A stretch of DNA of 64,000 bases. It comes from Corynespora cassiicola (taxonomy: Eukaryota > Ascomycota > Dothideomycetes > Pleosporales > Corynesporascaceae). The notes beneath the pieces are model-generated. The model was not told where the DNA came from. It saw only the letters and a list, made by a program, of their open reading frames with translations, and made no database searches. Positions 2,269 to 59,058 of the stretch are shown piece after piece. The number at the start of each line of letters is the position of its first letter. Position 1 is the first letter of the stretch. The position numbers and the translations under genes were made by a program. The stretch is taken from the NCBI GenBank assembly GCA_022059125.1, contig JAEUWY010000002.1:5394001-5458000 (forward strand), given 5' to 3'.

Positions 2269-4666
2269 ATGCGCGGCTTGTCGGCCTTCTCCGCCAAGGC
2301 CTGGCATGGTCCCGGAAACGGAGCTCTGTTCTCCCACATACCGTCTCGCGTGAACCTCTTGTCGCCCCTATCACTACGTGGGTCCGCCGCGAGGACGAAC
2401 TGCGCCGACGAAATCGCCTCCCAGGCGCGCTGCCTGGCTACCAGGGGCCCGCTCGCTGTCCGTCCAGCCCTCCTACATCTACATGCGCCAGCCGGCCTTG
2501 CGCGTCGCAATGGCGTGCCACAGCCCAGTCGCGCTTTTTCTGCGTCGAGGGCCGCCTTTGAAGCCCAAAAGGCCACAAAACAGCCCGTCAAGGCGCGCAA
2601 ATCATACAAAGACGAGATGAAGGAGAAAGGCGTCGTCAATGTTGAAGAGCAGGAGCCGGAGAGCGAGGAGATGGGCTTCGTCAAGTCGGAAAGGGCGTCT
2701 GCTGCCGCTCAGGTGAATCTGAGCGCCAAACTGAGCAAGGACGGGTCCGGAGGCGGCACCCCCGGCGGCATGAGGGAGATGTGGAGGTTGATCAAGATCG
2801 CTCGCCCGGAGATGGGCACCCTCTCGTGGGCCTTTTTGTTCCTGCTCCTGTCCTCGGCCGTCTCCATGTCGGTTCCCTTTTCCATTGGAAAGATTCTGGA
2901 TATTGCGACGCAGCCTGAGGGCTCCAAGGAGCTACTCTTTGGCATGGACATTACCACCTTTTATGCTGTCCTGGCCGGCGTGCTGGCCACTGGTGCCGCG
3001 TGCAACTTTGGCCGCATCATCATCCTGCGCATCGTTGGCGAACGCATTGTCGCCCGCCTCCGATCCCAACTGTACCGCAAGACTTTTAACCAAAACGCCG
3101 AGTTCTTTGATGCCAACCGCGTCGGTGATCTCATCTCTCGTCTTGGATCGGACACCATCATCGTAGGCAAGAGCATCACACAGAATCTGTCTGACGGCCT
3201 CCGCTCGCTTGTGAGCGGTGCTGCAGGCTTCGCCATGATGGGTTGGGTCAGCATCAAGCTCACAGGAATCCTCGCCATCATTGGTCCCCCCGTTGCCGTC
3301 GTTGCTTTCCTTTCCGGTCGGTCGCTACGCAACATCTCCCGGAAGATACAAAAGAATCTCGGAACTTTGACAAAAATTGCCGAGGAACGTTTGGGCAATG
3401 TCAGGACGAGCCAGGCTTTTGTTGGAGAGGTTCAAGAAGCAGGCCGCTATAACCGCCAGATCAAACGGATATTTGCCCTCGGTAAAAAGGAAGCCCTTGT
3501 TGCTGCATCCTTCTACGGAAGCACTGGCCTGATGGGCAACATGACGGTGATTGCCGTGCTCTATGTTGGCGGCGGCATGGTCAAGTCTGGTGCCATCTCC
3601 ATTGGTGAACTATCGTCGTTCTTGATGTACACGGCCTATGCTGGAGGCAGCATGGTTGGCTTGTCTGGATTCTATGGCGAGATGATGAAGGGAGTTGGAG
3701 CCGCGAGCCGCCTCTTTGAGCTTCAGGACCGCAATCCGACTCTCTCGCCTACAAAGGGTGAGCCCGTCAAGTCGGCCCGTGGCCCAATCGAGTTCAAGAA
3801 TGTCACCTTCAGCTACCCTACTCGCCCTGCCGTCACTATTTTCAAGGATCTCAACTTTAGGATTGACCAGGGTATGAACGTGGCAATCGTCGCCCCAAGC
3901 GGTGCTGGTAAATCCACAGTAGCTAGCTTGCTCCTGCGATTCTACGTCCCCAATGAGGGCCTTATTACCATCAACGGACGCGACATCACAAAGCTGAATG
4001 CCAAACAGCTCCGAAGAAAGATTGGATATGTCGGACAAGAGCCAGTCTTGTTCTCTGGAACCATTGCCGAGAACATCGCCTACGGTGTTCCGAATGCGAC
4101 TCGTGCTGAGATTGTTGCGGCTGCACGCAAGGCCAATTGCCAGTTCATCAGCGACTTTGTAGGTTTATCCACCAATCAATCTGAAATGGTACTAACAGCT
4201 GCAGCCTGATGGCCTGGAAACCCACGTTGGCGCACGAGGCACGCAACTATCTGGAGGCCAGAAACAGCGCATTGCTATCGCTCGAGCCCTCATCAAGAAG
4301 CCCGATATCCTTATTTTAGACGAAGCCACCAGCGCCCTTGATGCCGAATCCGAGACCCTGGTCAACCAAGCCTTGGGTAAGCTGCTTGAGGAGAGGAACA
4401 CGACAATTAGTATTGCGCATCGTCTGTCCACCATCAAGCGCTCGGACCGCATCATCTGCATTGGAGCTGACGGTCAGGTCGCCGAGGAAGGGACCTACCA
4501 TGAGCTATCCAACAACCCCAACGGTGCATTCAGCAAGCTCATGGAGTGGCAGTTGAGTGGCGGGGACGCAGAGCCCACTGTGAACAACCCCAGGCCTACC
4601 GAAGTAGAGGAGATTGAACGGGAGCTTGAGATTGAAGAGGCCGAAGAGGAGAAGACCCGCAGGTAA
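2269..4666 (+). CDS. Mitochondrial ABC transporter, MDL1/ABCB10 type
   Basis: Two exons, 2269-4158 and 4205-4666, with one 46-bp intron carrying a CTAAC branch signal; 783 aa. A long Arg/Ala/Ser-rich N-terminus without acidic clusters fits a mitochondrial presequence. A half-transporter membrane domain (about residues 185-470) follows, then a nucleotide-binding domain: Walker [10 protein letters not shown] (542-550), Q-loop GQEPVLF (about 589), signature LSGGQ (645-649), Walker B ILILDE (665-670), switch His about 702. The intron lies between the Q-loop and the signature. The tail is Glu-rich. Family members are inner-membrane half-transporters linked to peptide export or haem metabolism. The Walker A begins with Ala where Gly is usual. 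Assignment to MDL1 rather than ATM1 rests on overall resemblance, so no symbol is given. Confidence 0.9.
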
Positions 4667-13932: not shown

Positions 13933-14785
13933 CTAAAAGTGGAGTTACAATCTAGAGGTACCAGAAAGCAAGGAGCAGTCTCGGCTTAAGAAACTTGTGT
14001 GATGAACTGCATAACGTAAACTATAAGCAAGCGACGTACTTAATACTAAATATTTATATAAAATTTTAAAGCTTAATAACTTTCTAATTATAATAGCTAT
14101 TAAAATAAAAATTTAATATATATAAAGCTAAAATTTATAGTTTTTTATAAATATAAAAATTATATTTATAAATTTACTAATAAAAACGTTATTAAACTTT
14201 AAAATTTATATAAAATAGTATTAGTTTAGTTAATATAATAACTTTAAATAAGCTATAATAAATTATAATTATTTTTATAAACTATATAAATATATATTAG
14301 TTTATTAAAGTAATTATTATAGCGTATAGTATTTATTTTAGTATAGTTTATTTAGTTTTTTTTAAAAATATTAAAAAAAAAAAAGTTAAATTTAGTATTT
14401 TATATAAGTAAATATATATTACTAAAATATATTTTACTTTAATACTTAATTTTAGTATTTATTTTTATAAAATATTTTAATTCTAATAATAATTTATAGT
14501 ATTTAGTTTATAATAAGCTTAAAACTATTTAAAAAACTACTATTATTTAAAAATTTAATTATATAAACTATTTTTAAGTAATATATTAAATTAAACTAAA
14601 TGAACTTTATTAAAATAAGTACTATATACTATAATAAAATATTCTATTTATAAAAAAGATATTATAATTTATTATAGCTAATTTGAAATTATTATATTAA
14701 CTAAACTAATACAATTTTATATGTAAATTTTAAAATTTAATAACTTTTTTTTTAAATAAATTTAAAAAAATAATTTTTATATTTA

Positions 14786-14799
14786 TAAAAGGCTATAAA
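14786..14799. repeat. Target-site duplication, 1.6-kb repeat copy A (left)
   Basis: TAAAAGGCTATAAA; its partner at 18134-18147 is TAAAAAGCTATAAA, a 13/14 match differing only by a G/A transition. The inverted copy of this host sequence in the left arm of the enclosing element has it only once, supporting duplication on insertion. Confidence 0.7.
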
Positions 14800-17700
14800 A
14801 AAAGCTACAGAAGTTTTTTTCTCTTAGCTGTACTAGACTAGAACTAAACAGTAAATATAAATTAATAAAAAAAACAGAAATAATACTAGTTAAGTATCTA
14901 ATAAAACAGTAATTAAAAATAATAAAAAATACTTAAGTTATTAATAAGTAAGTAAGTAATTTTTATTTTATAAATTTATTAGCTTATTAGCTTATAAATT
15001 TATAACTATATAAATTATAAATTACAGATTATAAATTATAAAAGTAATAAAAAAATACTATTTTAAAATTTTAAAGTTTTAAAACTTTAAAGCTCTAAAA
15101 ATTTATTTAAAAATAACGTAAATAAAAAATATAATTTATAATTATTAAAGTATTAAATATAAAGCGTAGTTACGTAAAGTAAAATACTTTTAATAAATTA
15201 CTATAAACTTTAATTAAAAGCTTTAGATAAAAGCTTTAATATTATAAAAATTTAACTTTTATAAAAATTTATCTAAATAAGTATTATAAAAAAAAGCTAT
15301 TACTGTTTAAAAAAGTATTATTAGCTATATTTATAACAACTGTGCAAATTATTTACTTTTTAAATTTTATTATACTTTATATCTATACGCGTAAGTTTTA
15401 AAACTTATATTAAAATTATAATTAATTATTATAGTTAGTTTATAAACTACAGACTATAAACTAGCTTACAGTTAATTATAAGTTTTTAAAATTAATAGCT
15501 GTATTATAATAAGCTAATTAATATAATAATATAGATTTTGTTTTTATAGTTCTCCGGGCTGTAAGTATTACTAATATTACTAATATTATTATAATAATTT
15601 TTATTACTATATATATTTTTTTATTATAATAATTTTATAAAATTTAATATATAGAATTTTAAAAAAAAAAATTAATAAATATAAAATTATATATACTAAT
15701 ATAAATTATAAGCGAGCGACGCACATAAGTAAATAACGTATTTTCTAACTACTCTAGTACATATATAACTACTTACTTAACTACTTTAAAAGAATACTGT
15801 AATAATTAATATAAATAGTAAATAAAATAGTTATACTACTATTTTATATATATAAATTTTATATTTTTATTTTTTATAGCGTGTACAGCGCGCTTTTAAC
15901 TACTAACTACTACTAAAATAAATTATTTTTTTATACTTTTTTTTATTTAATTACTTTTTAACGTTTTTTTAAGTAATAATTTTAGCTTTTTTAGCTTTTA
16001 TTAAAAACATTTTATACTAAATTTTTTTTTTTAATACGCTGCGTAGCGGTTTTATTAGTTTTTTTAAAAAATTTATTTTAGCTTTTAAGTAATACAGATA
16101 TATAAAATATTACTATAGTTTTTTTTTAAGCTAACTAATAGCTATAAAAATAAAAATAAGTAATAAATTTTTATTCTTTTTAATTTTATTATAAATTAAT
16201 ATAAATTAAGCTTTTAGCTTATACGCGTTATTTAGTATTTTAGTTTTTTATTAAATAACTTTAGAAAAAACTAGCGTAAATATATATAATTTTATATTAA
16301 ATTTTAAAAATACTATTTTTAAATTATATAAAACTATTTTAGTTTTTTAAAAGCTTACGCGTATATTAGTTCTAGTAAAAAATTATTTAATTTTTTTTTA
16401 AAAACTAATAAAAAAATAATTTTATTAATATAATTAATATAATTATATACTAAACTAAAAATTTTATTACTGTATACCCGCTTTAAAAGTAAAAAGCACT
16501 CTATATTACGTAGTTAAAAAATATATATATAAAGTAATAATTTTACTTTTTATATAAAAATTTTAAAAAACTAAAAAATTATAGCTTTTATAGCTATTAA
16601 TAATAAATAGTTAGTATATTTTTACTGTATAGTTTTACGTATAAATATTAAAATATTTTAGCTAATATATTTTTAGTTTATTTATTATTTAGTCTGTTTT
16701 ACGAAGCGATATATACTAATTAAATAAAATATTATTTTTTTTAAATTATATAAAAAAATAGTACTTATCTGTAAAAATAATAAAAAAAAATTTATTTAGC
16801 TATATATATTAATTTTTTAAATTACTATAATTTATTTATAATTATTTAGCTAAATATTTTTTAGCTAATTTTATTTTTTTAAAACTATAACTACTAATTA
16901 AGCTAAAATTATATTTATTATAAAGTTTATTTTATTAAAGTTATACGTGTTTTTATTAATAATACTATTTTTTTTTATATAATATAGTAACTTAAACTAA
17001 AAACTAATAATTTTAAAATTTTTATATAAAATATACTAGTAATTTTACTAGTAAATTAATTAAACTTAAAAATTTAGCTAATACTTAATAAAATTACTAA
17101 ATTAGTTAATACTAATATAATCTGCACTTTATTTAGTAAGTAACTAATTAACTATATTATATATAGCAGTTAGCGTAGGCGTAAACTTTTATAAATTTAG
17201 CTTAAAAATATAAATAATAATACTTTTTTTAATTTTAGCTAGCTGTTTTAAATTAGACTAGTAATTATATTATATAAATTATCTTAAATATTAGTAATAA
17301 ATTATAGTTTTTAAAATATTATAAGTAGTAGCAGTATATCGCACTTTTTAAATTAATTAATTTTTAATAATTAAAATTTTTTTTAGTAAAAATATTATAT
17401 ATATAAATAGTATTTACTAAAGTAGTTAGAAAGTACGTCGCTTACTTATATACGTCACTTACTTATAGTTTATATTAACTATTTTTATATACTTATTACT
17501 ATATTTAAATATATATTTTATATAGTAAGTAATATTTTTTTATTTTTTAGTTAAGTATTTTTTTAAAATAAAAAAAAACGTCTAAATACGTACGTAACAG
17601 TATTTATAAAAAATAATATTTATAAAAAATAACGTTTATAAAAAACAGTTTTTAACGTTAATAGTTTTTTTATTTAATTAATTAATTCTTTTTTTAAGTT

Positions 17701-18133
17701 TTTACTATAACTGCTATAAACTATTTTATATATAATTATACTATATATAACTATAATAATAAAAAATGTATATAAAATAATTAAAATAGTAAAAAATAAT
17801 AGTATTAAAAAGTAAGTATATAGGCAGCGGCGATTATATAAACTATATAATATAAATGTAAAAAATTAAAAAGTAAAAATATCTTCTAAAAATTATATAG
17901 TTATAGTTATAGTTATTATAAATTAAAAATAGAAAAAATTATTAAAAAATTATTATTATTTAAAGTAAAAGCGTAAATTACGTATTAATATTATATTATA
18001 TAATAAAATAATATTATAAAATATACAAAATTACGCAACGGGTAGTACGTGCTAACTAAAATAAAATAAAAATAAAATAATATACTTACTGCTTATTAAT
18101 AATAAAATAGAAATAGTAGAAAAAAACAGAAAC
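14800..18133. mobile_element. 1.6-kb retroposon-like repeat, copy A (split)
   Basis: Begins AAAAGCTACAGAAG and ends near AAAAAAACAGAAAC. Subtracting the internal transposon leaves about 1.56 kb that aligns along its length with copies at 35891-37513, 57297-58943 (inverted) and 63043-64000 (inverted, cut by the window). It is flanked by 14-bp direct repeats. No coding capacity is readable. Confidence 0.7.
15699..17475. mobile_element. 1,777-bp TA-flanked transposon nested in the 1.6-kb repeat
   Basis: The terminal inverted repeats are about 60 bp; left and right arms differ at about 11 positions, all C/T or G/A transitions. Their first bases match the ends of the enclosing block A element (ACG decayed to ATA). 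TA dinucleotides flank it at 15697-15698 and 17476-17477. Two other copies of the host repeat give an uninterrupted site with a single TA (near 36751 and 57977), which proves insertion at TA. Length fits pogo/Fot1-type or Tc1/mariner transposons. No transposase could be read through the decay. Confidence 0.82.
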
Positions 18134-26046: not shown

Positions 26047-28080
26047 CTACCAGGTCTCCTGTGGATTATTAGAAAAAGTGGAACGGAGAGGTCGTGGGGC
26101 ACTTACAGCAATGTACTGGCCATCCTCCTTCTTCTTCGCCCAGAACTCGCGGGCCTGGGCCTCGCTAATGCCGCCCTTTTGCATGACCACCTCAACGAGG
26201 GACTTTTCCACGCCCTCGCCCATGCCCTTGCTGCTTCCGCAAACAAAGATGCGACCGTCGAGGGCGTTGATGACGAACCAGACAATGTCAGCCTGGAGCT
26301 TGACCTCGTCCTGAACGTACTTGGCCTCACTCTGACCAGGGCGGAACTTGCGACTCTGGACAACCTTTTTAATTTCACGCTCGTGATCACCGAGCTCGCC
26401 CGAGTAAATCTCATCCAGCATCGAGTCGCGAACACCCTGAATCAACCAAATCTTGTTGGCGCAGTTGGCGTTCTTGAGCCGGTTAAGGATGAAGCCGCGG
26501 AACGGAGCCATGCCCACGCCGGCGCCAATCAGGACCATGGGGCCCTCGCCACCAAACTGGCGGGACAGTGGGTTGGACATGAGCCCACGGAACATAGGCA
26601 CGCGAATGTCCAGGATGCTGCGGGGGTCGATGCCCTCGCTCTCGGCCTTGATGAAGCTCTGGGCAATGCGTTCCATGAAGCCGCTGCCAACACCAGTGCG
26701 CACTCCATCCTTGGCATGCCAATCTGGAGACTCGTGGATTGTGACTGCCATCTCGATCAAGCGACGGTTTCCGGGGAGGCCGGGACGGGCCGAAGAGATG
26801 TGGGGATCGTTGGAGAGCGAGTAGAAGCGGGGCATGAGCTGGTTGAGGATGGAGAGGAGGGCGGGAAGCGACGGCTTGGATGACGGGAAGGCGTGCAGGA
26901 GCTGGGCGATGGTGAGGTGCGATGTGGTTCGGAGGTCGCAAAAGGCGGCCTGGCCCTGGGCAGAGACGAGGTAGAAGAGGATCTTGCGCTCGTTGGGAGC
27001 ATCGGCATACTCTGCCATGACGCGAAGCAGCTGCTTGGTAGGGGGGAACGATTGCACGTCAGTGCACCAGGTCAGCAATTCGCGGCGTGTCGTGACGAGC
27101 TTGCGGGGCTTGTCCTCGCCCCAGATGGTGGGCCAACGGCCGCCTGTCGTCTTGAGCGTGACGGGCTTGTCCCTCACAAACTTTGGCACGCAAAGCACGT
27201 CGAAGAGCTCATCGACAATCTCGGCCGAATTGGGCGGGCAGATGCCGATGGCACCGCCGACTTTGAAGTCCACGCCGCCCTCGTCTGGGTAGTCAGTCAC
27301 GTCGAGGTCGAAGTGGAAAGTGCGCTTCTCGGCGCCCGGCTTGGTCAGTTCGCGGGCATGATACAGCGGAGCCGGGTAGACGTCGTACGGCGGGTGGGGC
27401 TGGACGTATTTCGGGGGCTCTTTGTGGACGGTCGAGAGGTGCTTCGGGGCCTCGGCCGGGACGCCCTCAAAGGACATTTTGCATTCCGGGAGTTCCATGG
27501 TGTCAGTGAGCTCGCTATCGAGGGCGAGGGGGCCCAATCGCAGGTTGAGACTGCGGAAGGCTTCATTGTCCGGAAGGACCACGGGAGTGAAGCTGGGCGA
27601 AGCCGTGTCGGGGGCAAGCGTCTTGAGCAAGCAGCAGCCACCACCGCAGCATTGGCTGATGAGCTTGGTGGCCGTCTCGCCCTCGCCCAGTATGCGACGG
27701 ATGTCGGCAGGGCTATCGGATATGAGAGTAGTGGAGGCGCGTCGGGGACGCGTCTGGGGCTGGGCGGCGGGGCCATTGAAGTTGATGGCGGCGGCGGGCA
27801 GGGCCTGCAGCTTATCGACGATCTCGTCGACCTGCGGTTCAGGCTCGGTGTTGGGTGTGAGGGGCGCCTCGGATTCATCGCTGCTGTGGCTGCTCCAGAG
27901 CATCGACTCGCCTGACGAGCGCGGCGACGTCTGCTCGGGCTGGTGCTGCTGGGGGCGAGACTGTGTGGGCTGAATGGAGAGCTGGGGCACGGCGCGCGGC
28001 TCCTGGGGGACGGGGTCGTCGGGGTGCGAGGTAGCCGTGGTGGGGAGGGGCGCGTGGCCCTGCGAGAGGGTCGAGGCCAT
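26047..28080 (-). CDS. Flavodoxin-less FAD/NADPH reductase with CCGGGCC motif
   Basis: Two exons: 26107-28080 and 26047-26058; 661 aa. The 48-bp intron separates the last three codons (ETW), which give the C-terminal Trp that stacks on FAD in this superfamily. Residues 1-130 are Pro/Ser/Gln-rich and probably disordered; a CCGGGCC motif lies at 144-150; then come the FAD-binding connecting domain, RFYSLSNDP (418-426, FAD), GVGSGFMERI, NADPH-binding GAGVGMAPFRGF (519-530) and FVCGSSKGMGEGV. This is the sulfite reductase alpha/cytochrome P450 reductase C-terminal half without a flavodoxin (FMN) domain, so electrons must pass to another acceptor. The Cys motif may bind metal. Five perfect iron-GATA motifs upstream hint at a role in iron metabolism, such as ferric or siderophore reduction (inference). 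Confidence 0.85.
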   Translation of the reverse strand: MASTLSQGHAPLPTTATSHPDDPVPQEPRAVPQLSIQPTQSRPQQHQPEQTSPRSSGESMLWSSHSSDESEAPLTPNTEPEPQVDEIVDKLQALPAAAINFNGPAAQPQTRPRRASTTLISDSPADIRRILGEGETATKLISQCCGGGCCLLKTLAPDTASPSFTPVVLPDNEAFRSLNLRLGPLALDSELTDTMELPECKMSFEGVPAEAPKHLSTVHKEPPKYVQPHPPYDVYPAPLYHARELTKPGAEKRTFHFDLDVTDYPDEGGVDFKVGGAIGICPPNSAEIVDELFDVLCVPKFVRDKPVTLKTTGGRWPTIWGEDKPRKLVTTRRELLTWCTDVQSFPPTKQLLRVMAEYADAPNERKILFYLVSAQGQAAFCDLRTTSHLTIAQLLHAFPSSKPSLPALLSILNQLMPRFYSLSNDPHISSARPGLPGNRRLIEMAVTIHESPDWHAKDGVRTGVGSGFMERIAQSFIKAESEGIDPRSILDIRVPMFRGLMSNPLSRQFGGEGPMVLIGAGVGMAPFRGFILNRLKNANCANKIWLIQGVRDSMLDEIYSGELGDHEREIKKVVQSRKFRPGQSEAKYVQDEVKLQADIVWFVINALDGRIFVCGSSKGMGEGVEKSLVEVVMQKGGISEAQAREFWAKKKEDGQYIAVSAPRPLRSTFSNNPQETW

Positions 28081-28347
28081 GTTGCGGCGTATAGAGGTGG
28101 GAGAGGGTGGGTGGTTTGGGCGGCAGTGGAGGAGAGAGTGGAAGGGCGGTGGGCGGGGGCACGAGGGCTTTAGGGACGCGACAAAGGCGGCGCTGGCTGG
28201 CGTGTTGGACCATGGTTAGCAACTTCTGAGTCAGGACGGGGCAGCGGTGATGCAGCAACGCGGGCTGCACAGCGGCAGCGGAAAGCGTGCGATTGCTTTT
28301 GTAAGCCCTCGGAACGCGGAGAAGGGCGGCGTGGTGGTGGTGTCGCA

Positions 28348-28356
28348 TTATCAGAT
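28348..28356 (-). promoter_or_regulatory. Iron-GATA motif ATCTGATAA, site 1 (with CCAAT)
   Basis: Perfect match on the minus strand to ATCWGATAA, described for the SreA/Sre1 iron repressors, 268 bp upstream of the reductase ATG. The minus strand reads CCCAATCTGATAA, so a CCAAT box (CCAAT-binding complex target) overlaps the GATA site by two bases. Confidence 0.6.
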
Positions 28357-28377
28357 TGGGACAGGGCTGCCCCCACG

Positions 28378-28386
28378 ATCTGATAA
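28378..28386 (+). promoter_or_regulatory. Iron-GATA motif ATCTGATAA, site 2
   Basis: Perfect match on the plus strand, inverted relative to site 1 with centres exactly 30 bp apart, about three helical turns. Confidence 0.6.
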
Positions 28387-28510
28387 TGGCGACGACTCGC
28401 GCACACGGGCGCAGGCACGGGGCGGCGCACTCACCAGGACGAAAAGGAAAGAATGACAGTCGCCGGCTTGCGGCCTGGAGGCGAGGAGCGGACACGGTGG
28501 GTGGGCTGCG

Positions 28511-28550
28511 GATGGCGGATGGCAAATGGCAGATGGCAGATGGCAGATGG
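28511..28550 (+). repeat. GATGGCA short tandem repeat
   Basis: About six imperfect 7-bp units (GATGGCG, GATGGCA, AATGGCA, then GATGGCA twice and a partial unit) in the reductase upstream region. Confidence 0.8.
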
Positions 28551-29560
28551 GCGAGGGAGGGCAATGAGGGCGAGGCCAGGGAAAAATACGTCTGGCAGTA
28601 GAGACTAGCAGCGGCCGGGGCTCGGAGGGGGCCGCGCGAGTTTTATCGTGGCATGGACGCGGTGACGAAGAATGGAAGAATCGAGCAGGCGGCGCCGGTG
28701 CGGGACGGGTGGACGAGCGGCCTGGGTTTGCGCCGATCGAGGGCTTCCCGGGCTCGAGGCTGAAGACACGATGAGCATATCAACTGCCCACTCTGACCAA
28801 CAAATTGCTCCTCGCGTGCGCGCCCCCTGTGCCGAATCGCGCACCCGACCAGGGTCGCGGAAGGGCTCCCGCTGCCCACCGCTGCCCACCGCTTGCCAAC
28901 GGCCGTCCGCTTGAATCCTCACCCACCGCAATGCACGCCACGCCCGGGCTCGGGCTCAGGCTCAGACCCGCGGCTGTTGCACCGTCCCCTGACTGCTGCT
29001 CAACACGCGCGGCGACGCCATCGAGTCCCAGAGCCCTCCTCGCCCTCGCCTTCTCGCTCGCTCGCTCTCTCGGTCTCGCGGGTGGGCCACGGCCACGGCC
29101 ATGGCCATGCATGCACTGCACTGTCATGTCTGGCCTCTAAGCAGACAGCCTACGCCATCCCCGCCTTCGCAATCGCTGCAACAATTGCGGCAGATTCGCT
29201 CTTGTTCCACGCCTCGCCACGCCTACGTCGTTGAATCCCCAGGCCAAGCCCCCGCCCGCGCACAATTGCCAGAAGCGGCTGCCCCAACCTGGCCCAACCT
29301 GGCCCTCGGCAGCTGCGCTGTTTCGAAACACCATTCTCCTTCTCCTTTATGCTGCGGCCTGCTATTCGAGTGCGGACACGTGTAGGGCGAGGCGTCGCCT
29401 CGTGGCCGCGCAATGCTCGAGGCCCCTACTCCTCCACGCCTACGCACCTGGCCACCACGTCTAGGGCCCCACCCCCCGAGTCCCCTTCAGGACATACTTT
29501 TCAGTGCTCCTCCATCCAGCCTCCCATCCCGGCTCACAACTCCTCCCTGTCTGTTCATTA

Positions 29561-29569
29561 TTATCAGAT
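29561..29569 (-). promoter_or_regulatory. Iron-GATA motif ATCTGATAA, site 3
   Basis: Perfect minus-strand match, about 1.48 kb upstream of the reductase ATG. Confidence 0.5.
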
Positions 29570-29643
29570 GGCTCACCGCAGTCCCGCTGCGATATCGGAA
29601 CCCGAGCCTTGCCAGGGAGCAATGTCATTGATAATTTCGGATC

Positions 29644-29652
29644 TTATCAGAT
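29644..29652 (-). promoter_or_regulatory. Iron-GATA motif ATCTGATAA, site 4
   Basis: Perfect minus-strand match, 83 bp from site 3 in the same orientation. Confidence 0.5.
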
Positions 29653-29705
29653 TCTGATCCGCCTCGTCGCGCATGGGCAAAAGGCGAGCCCGAGCGTGCG
29701 TTTCC

Positions 29706-29714
29706 ATCTGATAA
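29706..29714 (+). promoter_or_regulatory. Iron-GATA motif ATCTGATAA, site 5
   Basis: Perfect plus-strand match, inverted relative to site 4 with centres 62 bp apart, about six helical turns. Confidence 0.5.
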
Positions 29715-30406
29715 TTCTGGCCCGGTGAGATCATAGTCGAGCCTGAGCACCCTGATTGCTCGTAAAGCATGGGCTCGCCCCCCCGGGAACCACCGGAATG
29801 TCGAAACCTGTGCGTCGACCATATTTCTTCTGGAGCTCCTCCTTTCAGCCTCCTCCCCTGATCGATTGTGCCGAAGGGCGACCTCGGGCACCCGTGTTGG
29901 TTTCACCCTCCGCTCGCCGTCCACCCAGCTAAGTTTTTTTTTCCTGTCCTCACCTGACCCCCTCGCATGGAGTCAATGGGGGATGCAATGGGTCCCTCTG
30001 CTGCACTCCCAAGTCAGGTGGGTGTAGGTTTTTCGTCCACCTCATTGCAGCTCCAGCCGTCGGTCCAGTCACGTCAGGCCTTAGTCACCCCGCAGCCCAT
30101 TGGCCCACAGCCGGGTCGGTTCCTCTTTCCTCATCCATCGCCTCCTGCACCTCCCCCACTGCCAGCAGCCACCCAACCGAGATCTGATTGCCGCTTCACC
30201 CAGCCCTACCACCACCCTCGCTGCCCCGGCGCCCTCTCCTCCACATTGCCCTTTTACGCACTCGATTCCCGCCTGCGCCTGCGCCTGCGCCTGCGCGCTG
30301 CTATGCCTCTGGCACATGCCCCCCAGCCGCTTTCCAACCAGGAACCTGCACATCATGGTCCGAGTCACGCTGCCGCCGCACAGCCGACCCGTCCCTCGGA
30401 AATACG

Positions 30407-30442
30407 CTATCAGATGTTGAGAGCTCCGCGCCCATCTGATAC
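30407..30442. promoter_or_regulatory. Inverted pair of near-match iron-GATA sites
   Basis: ATCTGATAG on the minus strand (30407-30415) and ATCTGATAC on the plus strand (30434-30442), each one base from the consensus, with centres 27 bp apart. They repeat the inverted-pair arrangement of sites 1 and 2. Confidence 0.35.
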
Positions 30443-30543
30443 CGTCTAGACCCGAGCCCCTCCTTCCGACTCGGCGGCTGTGGGCGCCCACCGGGTGGGG
30501 TAGACAGCAGCAAAGTACCGGCGTCGCAGCCCAGGCATATACC

Positions 30544-30585
30544 GAGCCCAGAGCCCAGAGCCCAGAGCCCAGAGCCCAGAGCCCA
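30544..30585 (+). repeat. GAGCCCA tandem repeat, six perfect units
   Basis: Six exact copies of a 7-bp unit (42 bp) with a partial seventh. A minisatellite likely to vary in length between strains. Confidence 0.95.
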
Positions 30586-30999
30586 GAACTCGTGTGGGGC
30601 TGCCGTGCCCGTGGATCTCATGGCTGTTTTTAGCCACGGCCTCTTGGTGGGACAGCACCACATCTTTTCAGCCACCACGCCTGCATAAACGGAGAAGACG
30701 CGAAGAAAGGAGCTCCGCGGGTTTGGGGAGGCTGTTGTGGATATGGCTTGTGGAGCGGCTGTGCGAGTGCCGAATGCGGCTATATGGGCCGTGATGCACC
30801 ACGCAACTCACGCCAGAGCTCCTCGACTGATAAACCGTGTCCTCTACAGATGATTACATTGTAGGTACCAGTGCCAAAAGACTTTGGACCTTACCTGCAA
30901 ACCTTGGAATACGTAGTGGGTCTTGTCACGTGGTTTTCCTTGCAGCTGGGGCCTATCTTTTCAGAAAGCCACCTCACCATATAACACTACTCTGATACT

Positions 31000-31347
31000 T
31001 TGGCCATTGTTATCAAATCTGCTAACGCCCATGTAAAGAAGATTTATCAAACAAAAAGACCAAAGACCCTGACACTAAGGCAAAATAACGAGGAGGCTGC
31101 ACAAAGATTTGACAGTCTTCTTCAGCTACCAAGTGTTCAGGCTCTTCGTGGCTTGCATATTGCGCAGAGATTCTTGAATACGATGCGAATGGCCATTCCC
31201 GGTATGCATCATTTCGACCTCAGCCAGAGCTTTGGTCGAATGAGCCCCCTCAGTTGGACCATGATATTCGGAGGCAAACATGTGCTAGAAGCGGAGTTCC
31301 AAGACGAGTACGAAATGCCACGGCCCTTGGTAAAGCGAGTCATCTAA
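31000..31347 (+). other. Possible gene fragment, 115 codons
   Basis: An open frame without an ATG at its start reads like real protein (for example LQLPSVQALRGLHIAQRF and GMHHFDLSQSFGRMSP) and ends in TAA at 31345. It could be the last exon of an unrecognised gene or a relic. No domain is recognised and no convincing acceptor was fixed. A minus-strand frame at 31340-31594 is similarly suggestive but unassigned. Confidence 0.25.
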
Positions 31348-31758
31348 ACGGCACCAAATCGTCCTCCACTTTCCGTTCTCTCGAGTTTGCAGGACATTTT
31401 GACCAGGTAATGGCTTGATTAGCATAAGAGTCTCGGTATAGGTTATCAGAAGGCCAAAATCCTATATGAAGAGTTGCGGGAGGTGCGTCCCGAGCAGGGT
31501 ATTCAAATGTGGTGCTTAAAAAGGCCATGTACACCTGCCAATTTCTGATTAGGGGGCGGGGCCTTGACGTTGGAACGGAATCTGCTCCATACAAGTCAGC
31601 CTTGAGTCCAAAATAGAATCGTACAACATCGAGCGCTATGGGGAAATATCAGTCTGTAGATGCAAAAACGCTCAACACCGATGTGACTTGAATCGCCCAG
31701 AATCTCTTACTCCGAGACATATCTCTTTCAACATTGGTATACCTGAGTATATCGCGCC

Positions 31759-35890: not shown

Positions 35891-37513
35891 CAAAAGAGCT
35901 ACGGGAGTTCTTTTCTCTCAGCTGTGCTGGGCTAGAACTAAACAGTAAATACAAATTAATAAAAAAAAACAGAAATAATGCTAGTTAGGCATCTGATAAA
36001 ACAGTAACTAAAAATAATAAAAAATAATTAAATTATTAATAAATAAGTAAGTAATTTTTATTTTATAAGTTTACTAGCTTACTAGTCTGTAAATCTATAA
36101 CTATATATATTATAAATTATAAATTATAAATTATAAAAGTAATAGCTAAAAAAAAATACTATTTAAAAATTTTAAAGTTTTAAAGCTTTAGAAATTTATT
36201 TAAAAATAATATAACTTATAAAAATTATAATTTATAGTTATTAAAGTATTAAACATAAAGCGTAATTATTTAAAGTAAAATATTTTTAATAAATTACTAT
36301 AAGTTTTAGGTAGAAGCTTTAAATAAAAGCTCTAATATAGTAAGTATTATAAAAAAAAGCTATTACTGTTTTTTAAATTTTATTATACTCTGTATTTATA
36401 CACGTAAGTTTTAAAATTTATATTAAAATTATTTTATAAGCTAATTATTATAATTAGCTTATAAACTGCAGACTGTAAACTAGCTTATAAACTAGTTTAT
36501 AAACTAATTTATAAGCTAGTTTATAGTTAACTATAAGTTTTTAAAATTAGTAGTTATAGTAAACTAATTAGTATAGTAATATAGACTTTATTTTTACGGT
36601 TTTTTAGACTGTAAATATTACTAGTATTACTAATATTACTAATATTATTATAATAATTTTTATTACTGCGTGTATTTTTTTTATTATAATAATTTTATAA
36701 AACTTTATATATAAAATTTTAAAAAAAATTTTAGTAGACGTAAAATCGCGCACGCTAACTATTTCTATATACTTATTATTATATTTAAATATATATTTTA
36801 TATAGCGGGTAATATTTTTTTATTTTTTAGCTAAATATTTTTCTAAAATAAAAAAAAATATTTAAGTATATACGCGACAGTATTTATAGAAAATAATATT
36901 TATAAAAAATAATATTTATAAAAAGTAATATTTATAAAAAATAATATTTATAAAAAGTAATATTTATAAAAAATAATATTTATAAAAAACGGCTTTTAAT
37001 ATTAATAGTTTTTTTACTTAATTAATTAATTTACTTTTTTTTTAGCTTTTACTATAACTATAAGCTATATTATACATAACTATATTATACGTAACTCTAT
37101 TATAATATTTATATAACTATAATAATAGAAAATATATATAAAATAATTAAAATAGTAAAAAATAATAGTATTAAAAAGTAAAGTAAAAGCAGAGACGTAC
37201 GTGCGTAGATAGTAGTAATTATATAAACTATATAATATAAATATAAAAAATTAAAAACTAAAAATACGTTTAAAAGTTATACAGTTATAGTTATAGTTAT
37301 TATAAATTAGAAGCGGAAAAAATTATTAAAATACTATTATTATTTAAAATAAAAATGTAAATTATGTGTTAACGTTATATTATATAATAAAATAATATTA
37401 TAAAATATATAAAATTACGAGACAGATAGTACGTGCTAACTAAAATAAAATAAAAATAAAATAATATACTTGCTGCTTATTAATAATAAAATAGAAATAG
37501 TAGAAAAAAACAG
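35891..37513. mobile_element. 1.6-kb retroposon-like repeat, copy B
   Basis: The least decayed copy (1,623 bp), starting CAAAAGAGCTACGGGAG and ending TAGAAAAAAACAG. The first 85 bp (through a run of A after AATTAAT) is also found alone as the 83-bp element at 38205-38287. It holds a 16-bp minisatellite (36881-36990). No long frame. It is the left edge of block B and directly abuts unique DNA through a perfect 15-bp duplication. Confidence 0.8.
36881..36990 (+). repeat. 16-bp minisatellite inside the 1.6-kb repeat
   Basis: About seven units of ATATTTATAAAAARTA in copy B, against about three in copy A (17609-17645) and two in copy C (inverted, about 57825-57862). Confidence 0.8.
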
Positions 37514-37528
37514 AGATTAAGTATTTAT
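37514..37528. repeat. Target-site duplication, 1.6-kb repeat copy B (right)
   Basis: Exact partner of 35876-35890. Confidence 0.85.
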
Positions 37529-38204
37529 AAAATATAATTATAGTAGAGTAATATTAAGAAGAGTTAAATAAAAAATAGTAGTTTTTAAACTAAAATAGTT
37601 TTTTTAACTAATTCTACTACTATTAAATTAAAAAAAAGTTAATTTAATAGAAATTTACTAAAAACTTTATTATAAAAATAAATAACTAAATTTTATATTA
37701 AAGTTATTTACTGTTTATACTTATCATTTATATTTATTATTTAGTTTTAGCCTAGTAAAACTAAGAGAAAAAAACTGTTACAGCTTTTTAGATATTAAAG
37801 TTTTAGTACTAAAAATAAGTTTAAACTAAAAATAAAAAAAAAATGCAAAGTAAAAATACTTTTTATTTAAAATTTTATTTTAACTTTTTATTCTAAACTA
37901 ATTAAATTTAGTTTAATATATATTATATAAGTAAAAAACTAAAACTAAAAAATTATTTAAATATAAAAAAAATTAAATTTAAAAGAATATAATTTTATTT
38001 ATATAAATAACTATTATATAATAAGAAACTAGTTAGAAAAAATGTAAATAAATATTTTAAAAATATAAATATAAATTTTTTTTTAATAAAAGCAAGATAA
38101 AACCTTAATTTTTGAAATATAAAAAAAAAGTTAAATTTTTATTAAAAGCTATTATATCTATTACAATAATTTCTAATTTATTAAATTAAATAAAATTAGT
38201 ATTT

Positions 38205-38287
38205 CTGTTTTTTTTTTATTAATTTGTATTTACTGTTTAGTTCTAGCCCAGTACAGCTAAAAGAAAAAGACTTTCGTAGCTCTTTTG
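38205..38287 (-). mobile_element. 83-bp SINE-like short copy with perfect 15-bp target duplication
   Basis: Flanked by ATAAAATTAGTATTT at 38190-38204 and 38288-38302, a perfect 15/15 match. Read on the minus strand it begins CAAAAGAGCTACGAAAG, contains GTACTGGGCTAGAACTAAAC and ends in an A-run followed by CAG. It equals the first about 85 bp of the 1.6-kb repeat. Confidence 0.75.
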
Positions 38288-39670
38288 ATAAAATTAGTAT
38301 TTATTATACTGTATAAATTTTTTTAAAAAAATTATTAATTATTTAATAGCTTAATAAGAAAAAGAAATCAAAGCAAGATTAAATTTTTAAAAAAAAAAAT
38401 TAATAGAGATTTAATTAAAAGCCGTAAAAATTAAATAAATAGATATTATTAGAAAATAATTTAAATAAATCTAAAAAAAAACTTATAAAAATATTTAAAT
38501 AAATAGTTATAGTATAAAAATTAGTATAGTAGAGTAATATTTAAAAAAAAGTAATAGAAATAGTATTTTTTAAACTTATATAGCTTTTTAACTAAACTAG
38601 CTAAACAAAAAAAAACTTTATTATATAGAGATTTATTCTGCTATTTTTATTTTATCATTAACAAGTAGTAAGTATATTATTCTATTTCTGTTCTATTCCA
38701 GTTAGTACGTAATACGTTTAATTATTTTTCTAACTAAACTATACTACTACAGAGAGGTAACATTAAAAAAAAGTATATAAAAAAATTATATTTTTTAAAC
38801 TTGTAACGTATACTACAGGCAAGTTAATTAATAGATAAATTAGTTACTTTTACTAAAACTATACTAAAACCTAATCTATTATAGCTTAAAATACTATACT
38901 TTAGCTTTTTATAGTAAACTACAGCACGTAATATTATTTAAAAAAAAATTTTATATTAACTTTATACGTTCGCGCGTTATATTTAGTCTAATTATATTTT
39001 TTATAGTATTTTTAAAATAGTTTATTTTTTTAGATACGTATTTGTTTTTTTGTTTTTTTTATTACTACGTATTTTAAATTTTTTTAAAACTATTAGTTAC
39101 TATCTATTTTTAACTATTAAGATTTTTTTTTTAAATTTATTTTTTTTATATAATTTTTATTACGTAGTAGCCTTATTAGCTGCTTAAAGTTTTTTAATTT
39201 TTTATTAAGCTAAAACCAGCTTATACGTAATAATTACAGCTTTTTTTAATACTTTTTTAAATATTTTAACTATAAATATAAAAAAGCTGTTTATATATTT
39301 TTAAATTTTTAACTTTATAAACGTTAATTATAATTTAAATTCTAGAGTATTACTAAAAATTTATAATTACTAAAGTATATTATTTATAGTAAATAGTAGT
39401 AATAAAGTTTAAAACTTTATATTAAAAGCTAATATAATCTGTTTTAGATTAAAAAGAATTAATTTAGTATTTTAAAACTTTTTTCAAATATTATTAAAAG
39501 TAAATACTGTATTATAAGCTGCTTTAAAGTATAGCAGAAACTTAAATTTTATAAAGTAAATAATTTAGTTATATATAAGTATTTCGGCTTAGCGTCTATA
39601 CGCAGTTTTTAAAAAAATAAAATAATTTATATTAAATAGCTATAGAAAATATAATAAATATAAAAATATA

Positions 39671-41719
39671 CAGAGGGGTGATATTAAAAAAAAACCAACT
39701 TTTTTTTTATACTTTTTAAACTATTATAACTTTATAACTAAAAAAGTTATAAAAAAAGTAAAAACTTAGTTTTATAAGTTTTTACAGATTTCTTTTAAAA
39801 AAACTAAATTTTTTTTAGCTTATATAAATTTTTCAGCTTTAAAAAAAGTACTAAATAAGAAGTTAAAAAAAACTAAATTTAATAGCGTTATTATTTTTTT
39901 TCTAGCGTAATATTTTTATTTTTTATTTTTTTATAGTAAAGCTATATATAGTATATAACTATGGTTTTTTTTTAAAAATAACTTTCTATTCTAAAAAATT
40001 AATAAATTAAAAAAAAAAAATTTTAAAAATTTAATTATATTAGTAAGTTATAGATTACTAGTTACAAATTTAAATTTTTTTATTACTAATTACACTATAT
40101 ACTAATATTATAAAAATTAAAAAAAAAACTTCTTTTTAGTAGAAATTAGTTATTAATATTTAAAACTTATATTTTAATTACTATAATTAATTAAGTAATA
40201 TTATTTATAAAAAAAGAATTAAATTAAAAATTATATACAGTTTATTTTTAAAAAACGCTTTGTTTATTTTTTTATAAAAAGCTAAACTAAAGCTTAAAAA
40301 TGTAAAAAAGTAGAAAGTTTTTTTTAAAATAAAATTTAAAATTAAACTAAATTATTATATATTACATTTATTATTTTGGTTTTTATATCTTTAGTAGCTA
40401 TATTAAAATCTATAAAAGCTTATATTTAAAAATTAAATTTTTTTTAAAAACTAATATAAATATTTAAAAAAATAAAATAAAAATAGATCTTAAAAGTAAA
40501 ATATTTTTAATATTAAAAAAAATAGATTTATTTTAAGTTTTTTAATTTTTAGTATATATCTTATATTTATTATTTATTTTTTAATAATTTTTTAAATACT
40601 ATTTTAAAATAATTTCTATATTTATATTACTTTAAAAATATATAAAAATATATTTAGCTTATAGCTAGAAAGCTATATTTATTTTTTAAAAAAAAAATTC
40701 TAAAAAACTTATAATAATTACTTAAAAAATTTATATAAAAGTACTAAAAATTTTTATTTTTTCAAAAAGCACTTTTAAAATTTTATTATTAAATTTTCTA
40801 CTTAGACTTATATTTTAAAAAATTCTAAATTATTAATAAAGAAGAGTTTAAATGCTAAAAAATATATACTAAAATCTTTTAGGCTTTTTTTTAAAAAAAA
40901 TTTAATTTTAAACTTATTTTTTTAATTAAAAATATACTTTTTTTTAAAAGCAGTATTATTATATATATATTTAATAGAAATAATTTTTTTTCTCTAAAAC
41001 TTATATTACAAATACTAATAAAACCAAAATAATAAAAAATAAAAAAGGTTTTTAACTATATTTTATTTATTTAAAGTTTTATTAAAAAGTACTTTTTTTT
41101 TATTAATTTATAATTTAGCTTTTCTAAGTATTTATATTTATAAATTTATATTTAATATATTCTATTATATCTATATTTTAATTACAAATGTTATTTAAAT
41201 TTATAGAAATTTTTTAAGTAATTATTTTTACACTTTTAAAAATACTATTTTTTAAAAAATTAGTAAAAACTTTTAACTCTATTATCTCTATAATAAAGTT
41301 ATATAAAAAAAACTGTTTTAAAATTTTTAAATAAAATATTAAAGTAAATAAAATTAAAATTTTATTATATAATATATGCTTATATAAGCAATACTCTAAT
41401 ATTTGAATCTATAATAATTTATTTTTCGTTATATATATATTACCAATAGATATTTATTTTTATAAAATAAAAAATTAAAATTATACGCTAGAAACAAAAT
41501 AAATCAGCTTTTAAATTTATACTTTTTTAACTATACTTTTCCTTTAAAATAACAGGTAATAAATATTATATAAGCTATGTAATATTTTCTATATAAGAAA
41601 AAGACCTCTAAATCTCTTTAAAATTAATTTTTTTTTATTTTAATAGCTAGTCTAGTTACAGAGTTATACTAGTTTTAAAAGTATACCTTTTTTAGTTTTT
41701 TTTTAATGTCATCCCTCTG
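39671..41719. mobile_element. 2,049-bp Tc1/mariner-like element (CAGAGGGGTGA ends)
   Basis: Starts CAGAGGGGTGATATTAAA and ends in the inverted form (ending CCCTCTG), with TA on each side (39669-39670, 41720-41721). The terminus style (CAG-R-GGGGTG) and size match the impala-type Tc1 group of fungi. A second, opposite-orientation relative starts at 61617. RIP has destroyed any reading frame. Confidence 0.75.
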
Positions 41720-43230
41720 TATATAAAATAATAATTTTATTATTTTTATAGTATTACTAGAAAAAAAGTAATTTATAGTTTTTATAGCTATTAATAACTA
41801 GCAGTTAGTAGATACTAACAGTATACTTTTTTATATATTTATTAAAATACTTTAACTATTTAAAACTAAGCTTATTAGTTGTTTAGCTATTACTAACAAT
41901 TTTAATAACTTAGTTTTAGAATAGATTTTTTTTTATATTAGCTAGTAAAATAGTAGCGCGTTTTAAAAATAATAAAAAATAAAATAATTTATTTTTTAAT
42001 ATTAATATTTTATATAACTATTGTCTACTTACAGTTACCTAACTAAACTATTTTTAATTTTTTTTATTATTTTAAAACTGTAATAACTGCTTTTATTAAT
42101 ATTTATTTTATTAAAGTTATACATATTATTATTTTAAATATTATACTTAGTTTTAATACTAGCTACTAAACTAAACTAGCTCTAAATTACTTTAGAATTT
42201 TTATATTTAGCTTTTTTATAGTTATATTTTTAATTAAATTTTATTTTAAACTTTAGTTAACGTTTTATAAACGTACTAAGCTAGTTTATACTAATTAAGT
42301 TTAAATTACGCTTAGCGCGTAAAAAATTAGTTATAACAGCTATATTTACTAGCTAAAAGCTAAATTTTTACACATTTAGCTTAAATATATAATTAATAAT
42401 TATCTGCTTTTTATTATTATTTAATTTTTATAAATTAAATATAGTATTAGTTTATAAAAGTTGTTCTACGCGTTAGTTACTTAGTATATATTAAAATACT
42501 TTATAAATAGCTGTAGCGTGTTGCTAAAAAAAATTTATATTTTATTTAAAAGCTTAAAATATAAGCTGTACTTAAGTTTTCTAAAACATATTAATAATAA
42601 ATTATTATTAAAGTATTAGTATAAAAAAAGTATTTTAGTATAGTTTTAGTAAAAATAACTAACTTATCTGTTAACCAACTCGCCTGTAGTATACATTAAT
42701 AATTAGTATAAATATAAATTTTTATAAATTTAATTTAAAAATATAAATACTAATTGTTATTTTTTCGGCTTAGTTAGCTATTTTAAATTAAGCTAGTAAT
42801 TATATTTTATAAGTTATCTAACGCGTTAATTATAAAGTATTATATAAAAAATATTATAAACAAAAGTAGTATATTATGTATTTTAAATAAAATTATTTTT
42901 AACAGCTAAAAAAATAAAACTTATTAGTTTTTTATTATTTAATAGTTAAAATATAGTTAGTAAAAGTATTATTAGTATAAATAGTATATATTAAAGCAGT
43001 TAAAAAAGATAGCGACTTATTTATTCTAGTAACTTACTTATTCTAGCGACTCGCTTATAAATTACTTTATAGCTTTTTTAATCTATTATTTATATTTATT
43101 ATCTAGTTTTAGTTTTATAAAATCTAAAATAATTAATAGTTTTAAAATAGTTTTTTTTAAAAAAAAAAGTTTTAGTTTAGTATAGCTAAAAAAAAACTTC
43201 TATAGCTTTTTTTTATAAATTTTATTTTAG

Positions 43231-45564
43231 ACTAGGTTTAATTCGGCTCTACGCTAATTAGCTATAATATTTGCTTCTTTATATTTGTCTTTGTAGAAAA
43301 CTAGAGGTAAGGTACAGCGCGCACAGCCGAAGGAAAATTGCGATATTTTAGTGAACATAGAGCAACACGCGATTCTATTATGCAATTAATGTAGGCAGCT
43401 ATATAAGTTTAGTGTATCTCGAAATTAGGTAATAGCTTGTAAAATTCTCAGGTTATCTTTAGTCCTTCCATACCAGCAAACAGACTGCGATTAGGTAATT
43501 TTCCGGCCGCTTATGCATTATATTTCTATAGGTTAACTTAATAGTAAGATTGCCTAGATTCTTGAGACATCACCATACTGATATCCATTATTGCTTCTAA
43601 TCTAAATTTAGGAGGCCTAACAAGTTTATTTTAGCTACATTGCTTTGCATCCTCTCTCTTACTAAAATTTTAACAAAAAAGGGCTTTTGTTATTGCTTGC
43701 GCTTCACAATCTCTGTTAACATTTCCTTTAGATTGCCTTTCCGTTGAATTAAGACCCAAGAAATAGCCCAGGAGTCTCTGAGCGGGATAGGGAGACATTG
43801 TATACAAAGTAGGGCGGCAAATTGGCATTATCAGCGACCCTAAAGTCAACTGAAACCCAACACCGTGTTTTGAAGCGGACCAGGAGTGCACCATAGATTT
43901 CCTTCGACGACGATACCCTCTATGAGTTTCGCAAGGCTTCTGGAGCCGCCACTACGGCTATGTTGAAGCTTATTGTTTGTGACTATTCCGCAAAAGTCGA
44001 GAAAAGGAAATATCAGTAACAGAGCTCGAGTCGGAGTACCAAAGGATACTAGTGAAAAAATACATCTGTAGCTTTTGCTGGCAAAAAACCGTCGAAAGAA
44101 TGCCGCTCAAAAAGATTTGGCGCTTTACTGAATGCCTTGGAAATACCATTTCGAGAGTCATAGATCCTGGCCCCTGGCCCTCTCGATTGCTAGTGCGCCT
44201 TTGATAGATGCCCAGAGGTTGCAATCCTGCGATTGCTTTTACCAGGTCAATACCATGAGGCAGTGCACCGTCAGTGGTTCCTTCAACATGGGCCGAGCAT
44301 TGATCAAGCAAGGCGTCTTCGGATTGGGTCCGCGGTGTTTGGAGCCACGGGACGACTGGCCGGGCCAATGGCAGACGGGGGGTCTGTTTTGGCGACAGGA
44401 CGCGGTTGAGCTGCATCAACTGTGGAGCGGGCCAATTCTAAGCTGTCGGCACTTCTCTAGCAAGTGGGCTCGGAGATTCAGGCGAATTCTACGCGCATAC
44501 GGGCACACGAGCGTTATGAGCTGATCCGTGGAGACGTCGACGCTGGGCACGCCGGGCGCATTGGCTGCTGCAGATCAGGAGGGCAAGAAGGCGCCAAGTG
44601 CGGTTAGGCGGCTCTTGAGATGCTTGTGGTACTCTTGTCTCGACCCAAGGGCATCGCAGCCACATGTACAGCGGCGCATTGCCGTATACTCTCTCGATGG
44701 TTGATGCGGACCCACGCAGCGAGTGCACTGCAGGTCCAAGAGGAACCTGGGAGACCGGGAAACCAAGCGATGCTGGTCATGGAGGCTTGGCACGGCGCCT
44801 ACACTCCGAGATTCCCAGGTCAAAGCAGCAGTACCAGACTAGGTGTCTATATTGATACGTCCCGCCCACGAAATCGCATGAGATGCGGTGAAAAGGCGGC
44901 TTGGTTGCCGCTAGGCTATGGCGGTGCGCTCGGGCTGCCGAGTCCCGTCTTGAAGATTGGCCCGCAGCAACAGCACCCCGAGGGCTTTGCGAAGTGCGGG
45001 ATTGGATGCTAAATGCTCAATGGCTATGCCGCCTTGGTCGGACTGACGAGATGAAATGTGGGATTCTATGGCCCTCTCAAGTAGGGCGAGCATACTGCAT
45101 GTGCCCTACGCCACGCTGCATGGCCCGCGTGCTGCGTCTGTCCAGCGGCTGGTCCAGTCTTTGCCGTCCTGCCCTGTCCTGCCCTGTATTTCCCTGCCCC
45201 CTGCCCTCTATACCCTGCCTCGGCTTCTAGAATGCACTCCCGCCGTGCGGGAGAATTTCGGAGACGTGCTGTTTTGGTGCTTGGCGCGCCTCCAACCGCC
45301 ATTCCAAAACACCCATCTCCAATAGTCGATGCTTAGCCCTGTGCTCTACCACCGCTTCTAGATTGCTGCGGGCCACTCGACCGTTACAGATCACGAGATG
45401 CTCCTCCATGAACGTCCAAACAAGCAAATTTGCCATCCACATAAGATGGGCGGGCTTCGCCTTTGCAGCAATGATTGTCTTCCATCCCTACTGCATTCCT
45501 TCCCCCCGTTCCTTCTTCTCATTGGCTCATCGTCGTTGAGCGTCCATTCTTTCTTGCCCTCATC
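43231..45564. other. Intergenic region between block B and pectin lyase
   Basis: AT content falls gradually over 43231-43700, then is ordinary. No gene is supported; the longest frames (43970-44419 -, 44132-44524 +) overlap each other and show no domain. A short C/T-rich repeat (CCTGCCCTGTCCTGCCCTGT) lies near 45167-45190 in the pectin lyase upstream region. Confidence 0.45.
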
Positions 45565-55938: not shown

Positions 55939-56240
55939 ACGTAAACTACAAGCAAGTAACGCATATAAGCAAGCGATGTATTTAATACTAAGCATTTATA
56001 TAAAACTTTAAAGCTAAATAACTTTTTAACTATAATAGCTATTAAAATAATAATTTAATATTTAAAAGGCTAGAATTTAAAGCTTTTTATAAATATAAAA
56101 ATTATATTTATAAATTTACTAATAAAAACGTTATTAAACTTTAAAATTTATTTAAAATAGTATTAGTTTAGTTAATATAATAACTTTAAAATAGCCATAA
56201 TAAATTATAATTTTTTTTTAATAAGTTGAATAAATATATA
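55939..56240 (+). mobile_element. Left arm of a second ACGTAAACTA element
   Basis: Begins ACGTAAACTACAAGCAAG after a TA (55937-55938) and matches the left arm of block A over about 300 bp, then is cut by a Tc1-like element beginning at 56241. The intact sequence in block A shows the undisturbed target. Confidence 0.75.
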
Positions 56241-58943: not shown

Positions 58944-59058
58944 ATAGAATTAAATTCTATTTTTTATTTATAGTGTTTATAAATAAAGTATTTTCTTTTT
59001 TATTATTTTTTTTGCTTAATAAATTAGAATGTAATTTTTTTAAATTATTTTTTAATAT

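Follow-up and report, generated by a model that had tools for sequence, protein, structure and literature searches.

A probable SreA operator array upstream of a methionine synthase reductase-like gene in Corynespora cassiicola

What is regulated by a dense cluster of ATCWGATAA sites, the published motif of the fungal iron repressor SreA (PMC2610380; PMC6762210; PMC10602907), when the gene it precedes encodes a reductase of no evident role in iron metabolism? The cluster lies at 28348-30442 of a 64,000-nucleotide stretch of the Corynespora cassiicola genome (assembly GCA_022059125.1, contig JAEUWY010000002.1, positions 5,394,001 to 5,458,000 of the forward strand; hereafter the window), upstream of a gene for a FAD/NADPH reductase that resembles methionine synthase reductase (MSR). 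With a probability of roughly 0.7, we propose that the cluster is the SreA operator array of this MSR-like reductase and that the enzyme belongs to the GrxD/[2Fe-2S] arm of iron handling.

The sites and their rarity

A motif search of the window recovered five perfect copies of ATCTGATAA, all of the T variant of ATCWGATAA, along with two near matches (Table 1), at the places where a sequence-only reading of this DNA had put them; its grouping of four copies into inverted or close pairs also stands, as they form the divergent pairs 28348/28378 and 29644/29706. Two further perfect copies of ATCWGATAA are found elsewhere in the window, at 35991 and 49845. The resulting seven compare with a shuffle mean of 1.46, and none of 100 shuffles reached this number. 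Within 28081-30500, the five perfect sites stand against a mean of 0.006, with none of 1000 dinucleotide-preserving shuffles reaching five, and the shorter ATCWGATA is seen seven times against 0.034 under the same kind of shuffle. The generic GATA pattern HGATAR is slightly increased (8 versus 2.3; 2 of 1000 shuffles reach 8), an enrichment that was dropped as evidence for being too weak.

Across the 44.35 Mb of the genome (23 contigs) we counted 548 ATCWGATAA sites (0.012 per kb) as against 656 for the reversed-pattern control, where the genome counts may be low in that the pattern search passes over simple repeats and very common words. Hence, taken by itself, the motif shows no genome-wide enrichment, and at so low a rate the occurrence of five copies within 1.4 kb is not chance: a Poisson model predicts ~2e-6 five-site clusters of 1367 bp for the whole genome, and still 4.5e-4 if all sites were confined to a quarter of it. 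Of the 30 loci surrounding the initial 30 sites on contig C1, 28 have one non-overlapping site per 3 kb, and the other two are a single place, at a siderophore-transporter-like gene. The whole-genome count and the shuffles thus agree with the earlier claim of a site density beyond chance. Local duplication of a repeat unit was discarded as an origin of the cluster, with no repeat family or tandem array being found over the array sites.

The end of the ATCTGATAA site at 28348 is overlapped by a CCAAT box (ATTGG at 28355-28359; CCCAATCTGATAA on the gene strand), and three more CCAAT boxes are present in 28081-31750. Given this overlap, binding of the CCAAT-complex and of a GATA factor at 28348-28359 could be mutually exclusive.

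The motif at iron genes and its pairing across the genome

Iron genes of the same genome were picked by family, blind to the motif, with a locus being defined as ±1.5 kb and called positive if it held at least one perfect site. Five of the seven iron loci are positive (Table 1), as against none of the 22 control loci, which consist of five other PF13434, six other GATA-factor, one weak GNAT and seven PF00667-paralog loci together with three other glutaredoxins. Second matches in one gene (L044, L056, L061, L075) were merged with their partner, and the locus test drew on 8 of the 19 PF13434 and 8 of the 13 PF00667 matches. The genome also encodes a canonical SreA, in which two GATA fingers (C13:455516 and 455963) share one frame with CPGGGRCNGTGGQQGCNGCPAFNNR and which carries a CPGGGRCNGTGG..CNGCP Cys-rich, iron-sensing region, as well as a HapX with its Cys motifs and a GrxD combining Trx and CGFS Grx domains. 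The five sites of the reductase promoter equal the maximum of any locus examined.

Curvularia lunata belongs, like C. cassiicola, to the Pleosporales. Its SreC binds a closely similar element in the yeast one-hybrid system, which is printed in two ways in PMC10938068, as ATGWGATAW and as ATCWGATAW. The presence of ATCWGATAA at sidA, hapX, grxD and the acyltransferase locus supports its reading as an SreA-type motif.

We observed that perfect divergent pairs with a gap of 10-40 bp occur at three places in the entire genome (none for the control, about 0.05 expected), upstream of the reductase, an MFS gene and a NifU_N (ISU1-type) iron-sulfur (Fe-S) scaffold gene. The MFS gene has MFS_1 as its only Pfam match, below the cut-off, and a search with its transporter exon returned no solved structural relative at E 0.01; by its sequence, it is probably of the siderophore-transporter type. 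From the pair before the ISU1-type gene, control by the iron repressor may extend in this fungus to the assembly of mitochondrial Fe-S clusters. On the strength of the three genomic pairs and of the contrast between iron and control loci, the interpretation of the array as an iron-GATA (SreA) operator is well supported by tests within the same genome, and the control of the reductase gene by SreA, the best-supported step of our proposal, appears very probable.

Direct pairs of ATCWGATAA with a gap of 2-62 were found at 10 places (control 2), one of them at hapX and two within ~7 kb of siderophore loci, and are not taken as evidence by themselves. The genes at the other seven (C2:2851575, C2:5301315, C4:225137, C4:4067361, C6:2485083, C12:458641 and C16:182048) are candidates for further iron-regulated genes. 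The near-integral helical spacing that the sequence-only reading had claimed did not survive. Measured between site centres, the perfect pairs of the array are spaced at 30 and 62 bp (~2.9 and ~5.9 turns of 10.5 bp), its near-match pair at 27 bp (~2.6 turns) and the other two genomic pairs at 29 and 43 bp (~2.8 and ~4.1 turns), and helical phasing was accordingly abandoned.

Table 1. Features of the array and reductase gene in the window, and motif-bearing loci elsewhere in the genome (C1, C2 and so on are contigs)
Feature	Position	Strand	Basis or remark
Perfect ATCTGATAA	28348-28356	-	exact motif match
Perfect ATCTGATAA	28378-28386	+	exact motif match
Single perfect ATCTGATAA, unpaired	29561-29569	-	exact motif match
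Perfect ATCTGATAA	29644-29652	-	exact motif match
Perfect ATCTGATAA	29706-29714	+	exact motif match
Near match (8/9) ATCTGATAG	30407-30415	-	one mismatch
Near match (8/9) ATCTGATAC	30434-30442	+	one mismatch
Divergent perfect ATCTGATAA pair	28348..28386	28348 -, 28378 +	268-306 bp before reductase ATG
Second divergent perfect ATCTGATAA pair	29644..29714	29644 -, 29706 +	gap 53
Third divergent pair, both sites 8/9	30407..30442	ATCTGATAG -, ATCTGATAC +	
MSR-like FAD/NADPH reductase gene	26047..28080	-	Pfam FAD_binding_1 E 1.6e-44, NAD_binding_1 E 2.1e-08
CCGGGCC cysteine motif codons (residues 144-150)	27631..27651	-	family alignment
sidA	C2:2559155		sites 808, 639, 102 bp upstream; positive
SidA-like gene	C5		one site, 3' side of gene; positive
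Siderophore acyltransferase locus	C5		five sites, 3' side of gene; positive
hapX			two sites; positive
grxD			one site ~160 bp upstream (counted by hand); positive
Divergent pair before reductase	window		306-268 bp upstream of ATG
Divergent pair before MFS gene	C1:969461		333-296 bp upstream of ATG
Divergent pair before NifU_N (ISU1-type) Fe-S scaffold gene	C16:759464-759515		324-273 bp upstream of ATG

The reductase family and its link to GrxD

The reductase coordinates given by the sequence-only reading are correct, and Pfam confirms its FAD and NADPH domains while returning no Flavodoxin_1 match in the 722-residue frame. Reading the DNA by hand, we placed the stop codon at 26047-26049 and a last exon encoding ETW behind an intron at ~26059-26106; orthologs end in YIAETW, which supports this C-terminal exon. 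The best match is a C. cassiicola protein with 99% identity. Among the paralogs, the Flavodoxin_1 domain is seen in L063, L065, L066 and L069 and was not seen in the scanned frames of L064, L068 and L070. In both sequence and fold the FAD and NADPH domains are most similar to human MSR (2QTL; VIA-align), and, by these comparisons, the protein is a member of a conserved family closest to human MSR and without a flavodoxin.

Several short motifs are strongly conserved in this family. CCGGGCC is kept in 273 of the 280 fetched members with at least 590 residues (291 of 337 when all fetched members are counted); RFYS is invariant in 115 of 115 rows of the family alignment, which also lists GAGVG as invariant, and the S and T of RRAST (residues 113-117) are present in all 111 ungapped rows of alignment A3. 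RRAST is a possible kinase site and CCGGGCC a possible metal or thiol site. A first structure model was too poor for use (predicted local distance difference test score, pLDDT, 42), and a second (pLDDT 72) is usable for the FAD part alone, being weak at residues ~1-150 and in much of 500-600. Both RRAST and CCGGGCC lie in its low-confidence N-terminus, and the unreliable placement of CCGGGCC in the model was left uninterpreted.

An Exophiala member of the family, 59% identical over its length, is named '[methionine synthase] reducta..', and a Eurotiales member, from Paecilomyces, is 58% identical to the window reductase. From this name and the presence of the family in Eurotiales, the reductase is quite probably the ortholog of Afu4g10100 of A. 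fumigatus, listed as '(Methionine synthase reductase)' with the S. pombe ortholog SPAC1783.01 among the proteins that co-purified with GrxD (Table 1 of PMC6762210). The main text of that paper mentions Afu4g10100 once, in this table, and neither Afu4g10100 nor SPAC1783.01 appears in any other open-access paper searched. How GrxD transmits the starvation signal to SreA and HapX is left open in PMC6762210, which proposes that it may remove their [2Fe-2S] clusters or act by conformational change; a later paper, PMC11285713, cites it for cluster removal. Where the sequence-only reading had predicted that the enzyme works in ferric, haem or siderophore chemistry, the one hint found in the literature points instead to the GrxD/iron-sulfur sensing arm. 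A probable GrxD binder preceded by five SreA-type sites, the reductase could concretely be the redox component missing from this pathway, and this would give the 'putative methionine synthase reductase' of fungi a possible role in iron.

Proposed mechanism, alternatives and known systems

We propose that in iron-replete cells SreA would bind the divergent ATCTGATAA pairs of the array, which sits within the reductase promoter region of 2.4 kb, and repress the gene, whereas at low iron the gene would be derepressed alongside siderophore synthesis and uptake. The enzyme would then act in the cytosolic GrxD/[2Fe-2S] arm, with electrons predicted to pass from NADPH through FAD to clusters or thiols bound to GrxD or to a regulator, and with the CCGGGCC segment perhaps being the electron relay. 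In a bolder form, which we think improbable, the reductase would be the missing electron donor with which GrxD strips or remodels the [2Fe-2S] clusters that SreA and HapX carry, and CCGGGCC would stand in for the lost flavodoxin as a cluster or thiol relay. Because SreA would repress the reductase gene through the array, such a system would constitute a positive-feedback switch: as iron falls and SreA repression is relieved, more reductase-GrxD would disarm the leftover SreA faster.

Several observations weigh against the proposal of an SreA-controlled reductase acting with GrxD. Sites with at most one mismatch are not enriched across the window (28 versus a mean of 41), and the HapX motif CSAATN12RWT has no match in 28081-31750, which leaves that stretch without a co-site for the CCAAT-binding complex with HapX (CBC:HapX). 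Scans of sequence collections, which reached no fungal contigs, gave no promoter of a relative. Neither sreA nor a second siderophore-type acyltransferase has a perfect site within ±1.5 kb, and at both C5 loci the sites are on the 3' side of the matched gene. The pairs at the ISU1-type and transporter genes were found via the motif itself and are therefore not independent evidence; a divergent pair with a gap of 41-101 bp occurs once in the genome (29644/29706) and once in the control, and the divergent 8-mer pattern, at 5 places (2 within the array) versus 4, is so little above the control that we did not use it. With regard to the protein, the P450-reductase paralog L066 scores 114 bits against human MSR and the reductase 112, the two differing in ranking alone in a comparison covering 3 of the 13 PF00667 matches. 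The probable orthology to Afu4g10100 was derived from name and Eurotiales family membership. The log2 values of Afu4g10100 with GrxD, 7.62 at low, 4.11 at sufficient and 2.49 at high iron, come from pull-downs in which the low-iron cultures received ten times more xylose for bait induction, and the trend is thereby confounded and is no proof of iron regulation (PMC6762210, whose Table 1 gives no value for GrxD without its Trx domain). Like the orthology, the binding of SreA to these sites, the response to iron, the passage of electrons and the function of CCGGGCC are inferences.

The same promoter evidence would apply to an enzyme of iron acquisition, which might release iron from siderophores or haem or donate electrons to a ferric-chelate step, and haem enzymes are fed by members of the P450-reductase superfamily, to which the family belongs. 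However, apart from the GrxD pull-down we found no hint of what the family does, and no siderophore gene was found among the 29 window frames (of 74 listed) that were scanned with Pfam; no membrane or haem-partner evidence turned up, no search having been aimed at it. We consider such a role unlikely. It is more doubtful still that a different GATA factor, unrelated to iron, occupies the sites, such as the nitrogen regulator AreA or a light or development factor. The genome does have six GATA-finger matches besides SreA, and the GATA core is common to all these factors, but the full 9-mer is enriched far above that core in the promoter and marks sidA, hapX, grxD and siderophore loci to the exclusion of the controls.

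Slightly less credible again is that some small gene or non-coding RNA, transcribed from 28.1-31.7 kb and so far unannotated, is what the array controls. Many open frames do lie in the ~3.6 kb between the reductase and the next recognised gene, but Pfam gave no match for nine frames within 27.9-30.8 kb or for another at 30985-31347, no Rfam family matches the window at gathering thresholds, and the nearest divergent pair precedes the reductase ATG by a distance much like that seen at two other genes. The right-hand beta-lactamase-like gene, on the minus strand, turns its 3' end toward the array. No recognisable gene other than the reductase has its 5' end facing the array among the scanned frames, in keeping with the sequence-only reading. 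Finally, the short tandem repeats in parts of the region and the unenriched one-mismatch sites might speak for a cluster that arose by chance in promoter DNA of high GC content and low complexity, but the expected cluster numbers, the shuffles and the sparse C1 loci make this possibility negligible.

Two other features of the window are recorded here. A half ABC transporter is encoded at 2266-4209 on the plus strand, ~24 kb from the array, with human mitochondrial ABCB10 as its closest solved chain (E 1.8e-118). Very AT-rich blocks (12-25% GC) at 14001-18000, 36001-44000 and 56001-64000 lie beside DNA of ~43-64% GC near a contig end, and have the look of isochores affected by repeat-induced point mutation (RIP).

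Several known systems come close to the proposed SreA-reductase module. The SreA/Sre1/Fep1/Urbs1 operators, as at the A. fumigatus siderophore genes and grxD, have the same 9-mer in multiple copies within 1-2 kb upstream; here, in contrast, the putative target is an MSR-like reductase, all copies are of the T variant and divergent pairs dominate. For the FAD/NADPH part, the FNR-like module of human MSR (2QTL) gives the best match in both sequence and fold, but in the fungal protein no flavodoxin domain was found and a low-confidence N-terminus bears RRAST and CCGGGCC. As fungi are not known to have a B12-dependent methionine synthase, the name MSR applies by homology only. Afu4g10100 and SPAC1783.01 share their annotation with a member of the reductase family, which is present in Eurotiales. 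The Tah18-Dre2 system of cytosolic Fe-S assembly, on which a study is cited in PMC6762210, likewise pairs an NADPH flavoprotein with an Fe-S protein, and Tah18 belongs to the same flavoprotein superfamily as the reductase; however, Tah18 keeps its flavodoxin domain, whereas the window reductase is without one and carries a Cys motif of its own.
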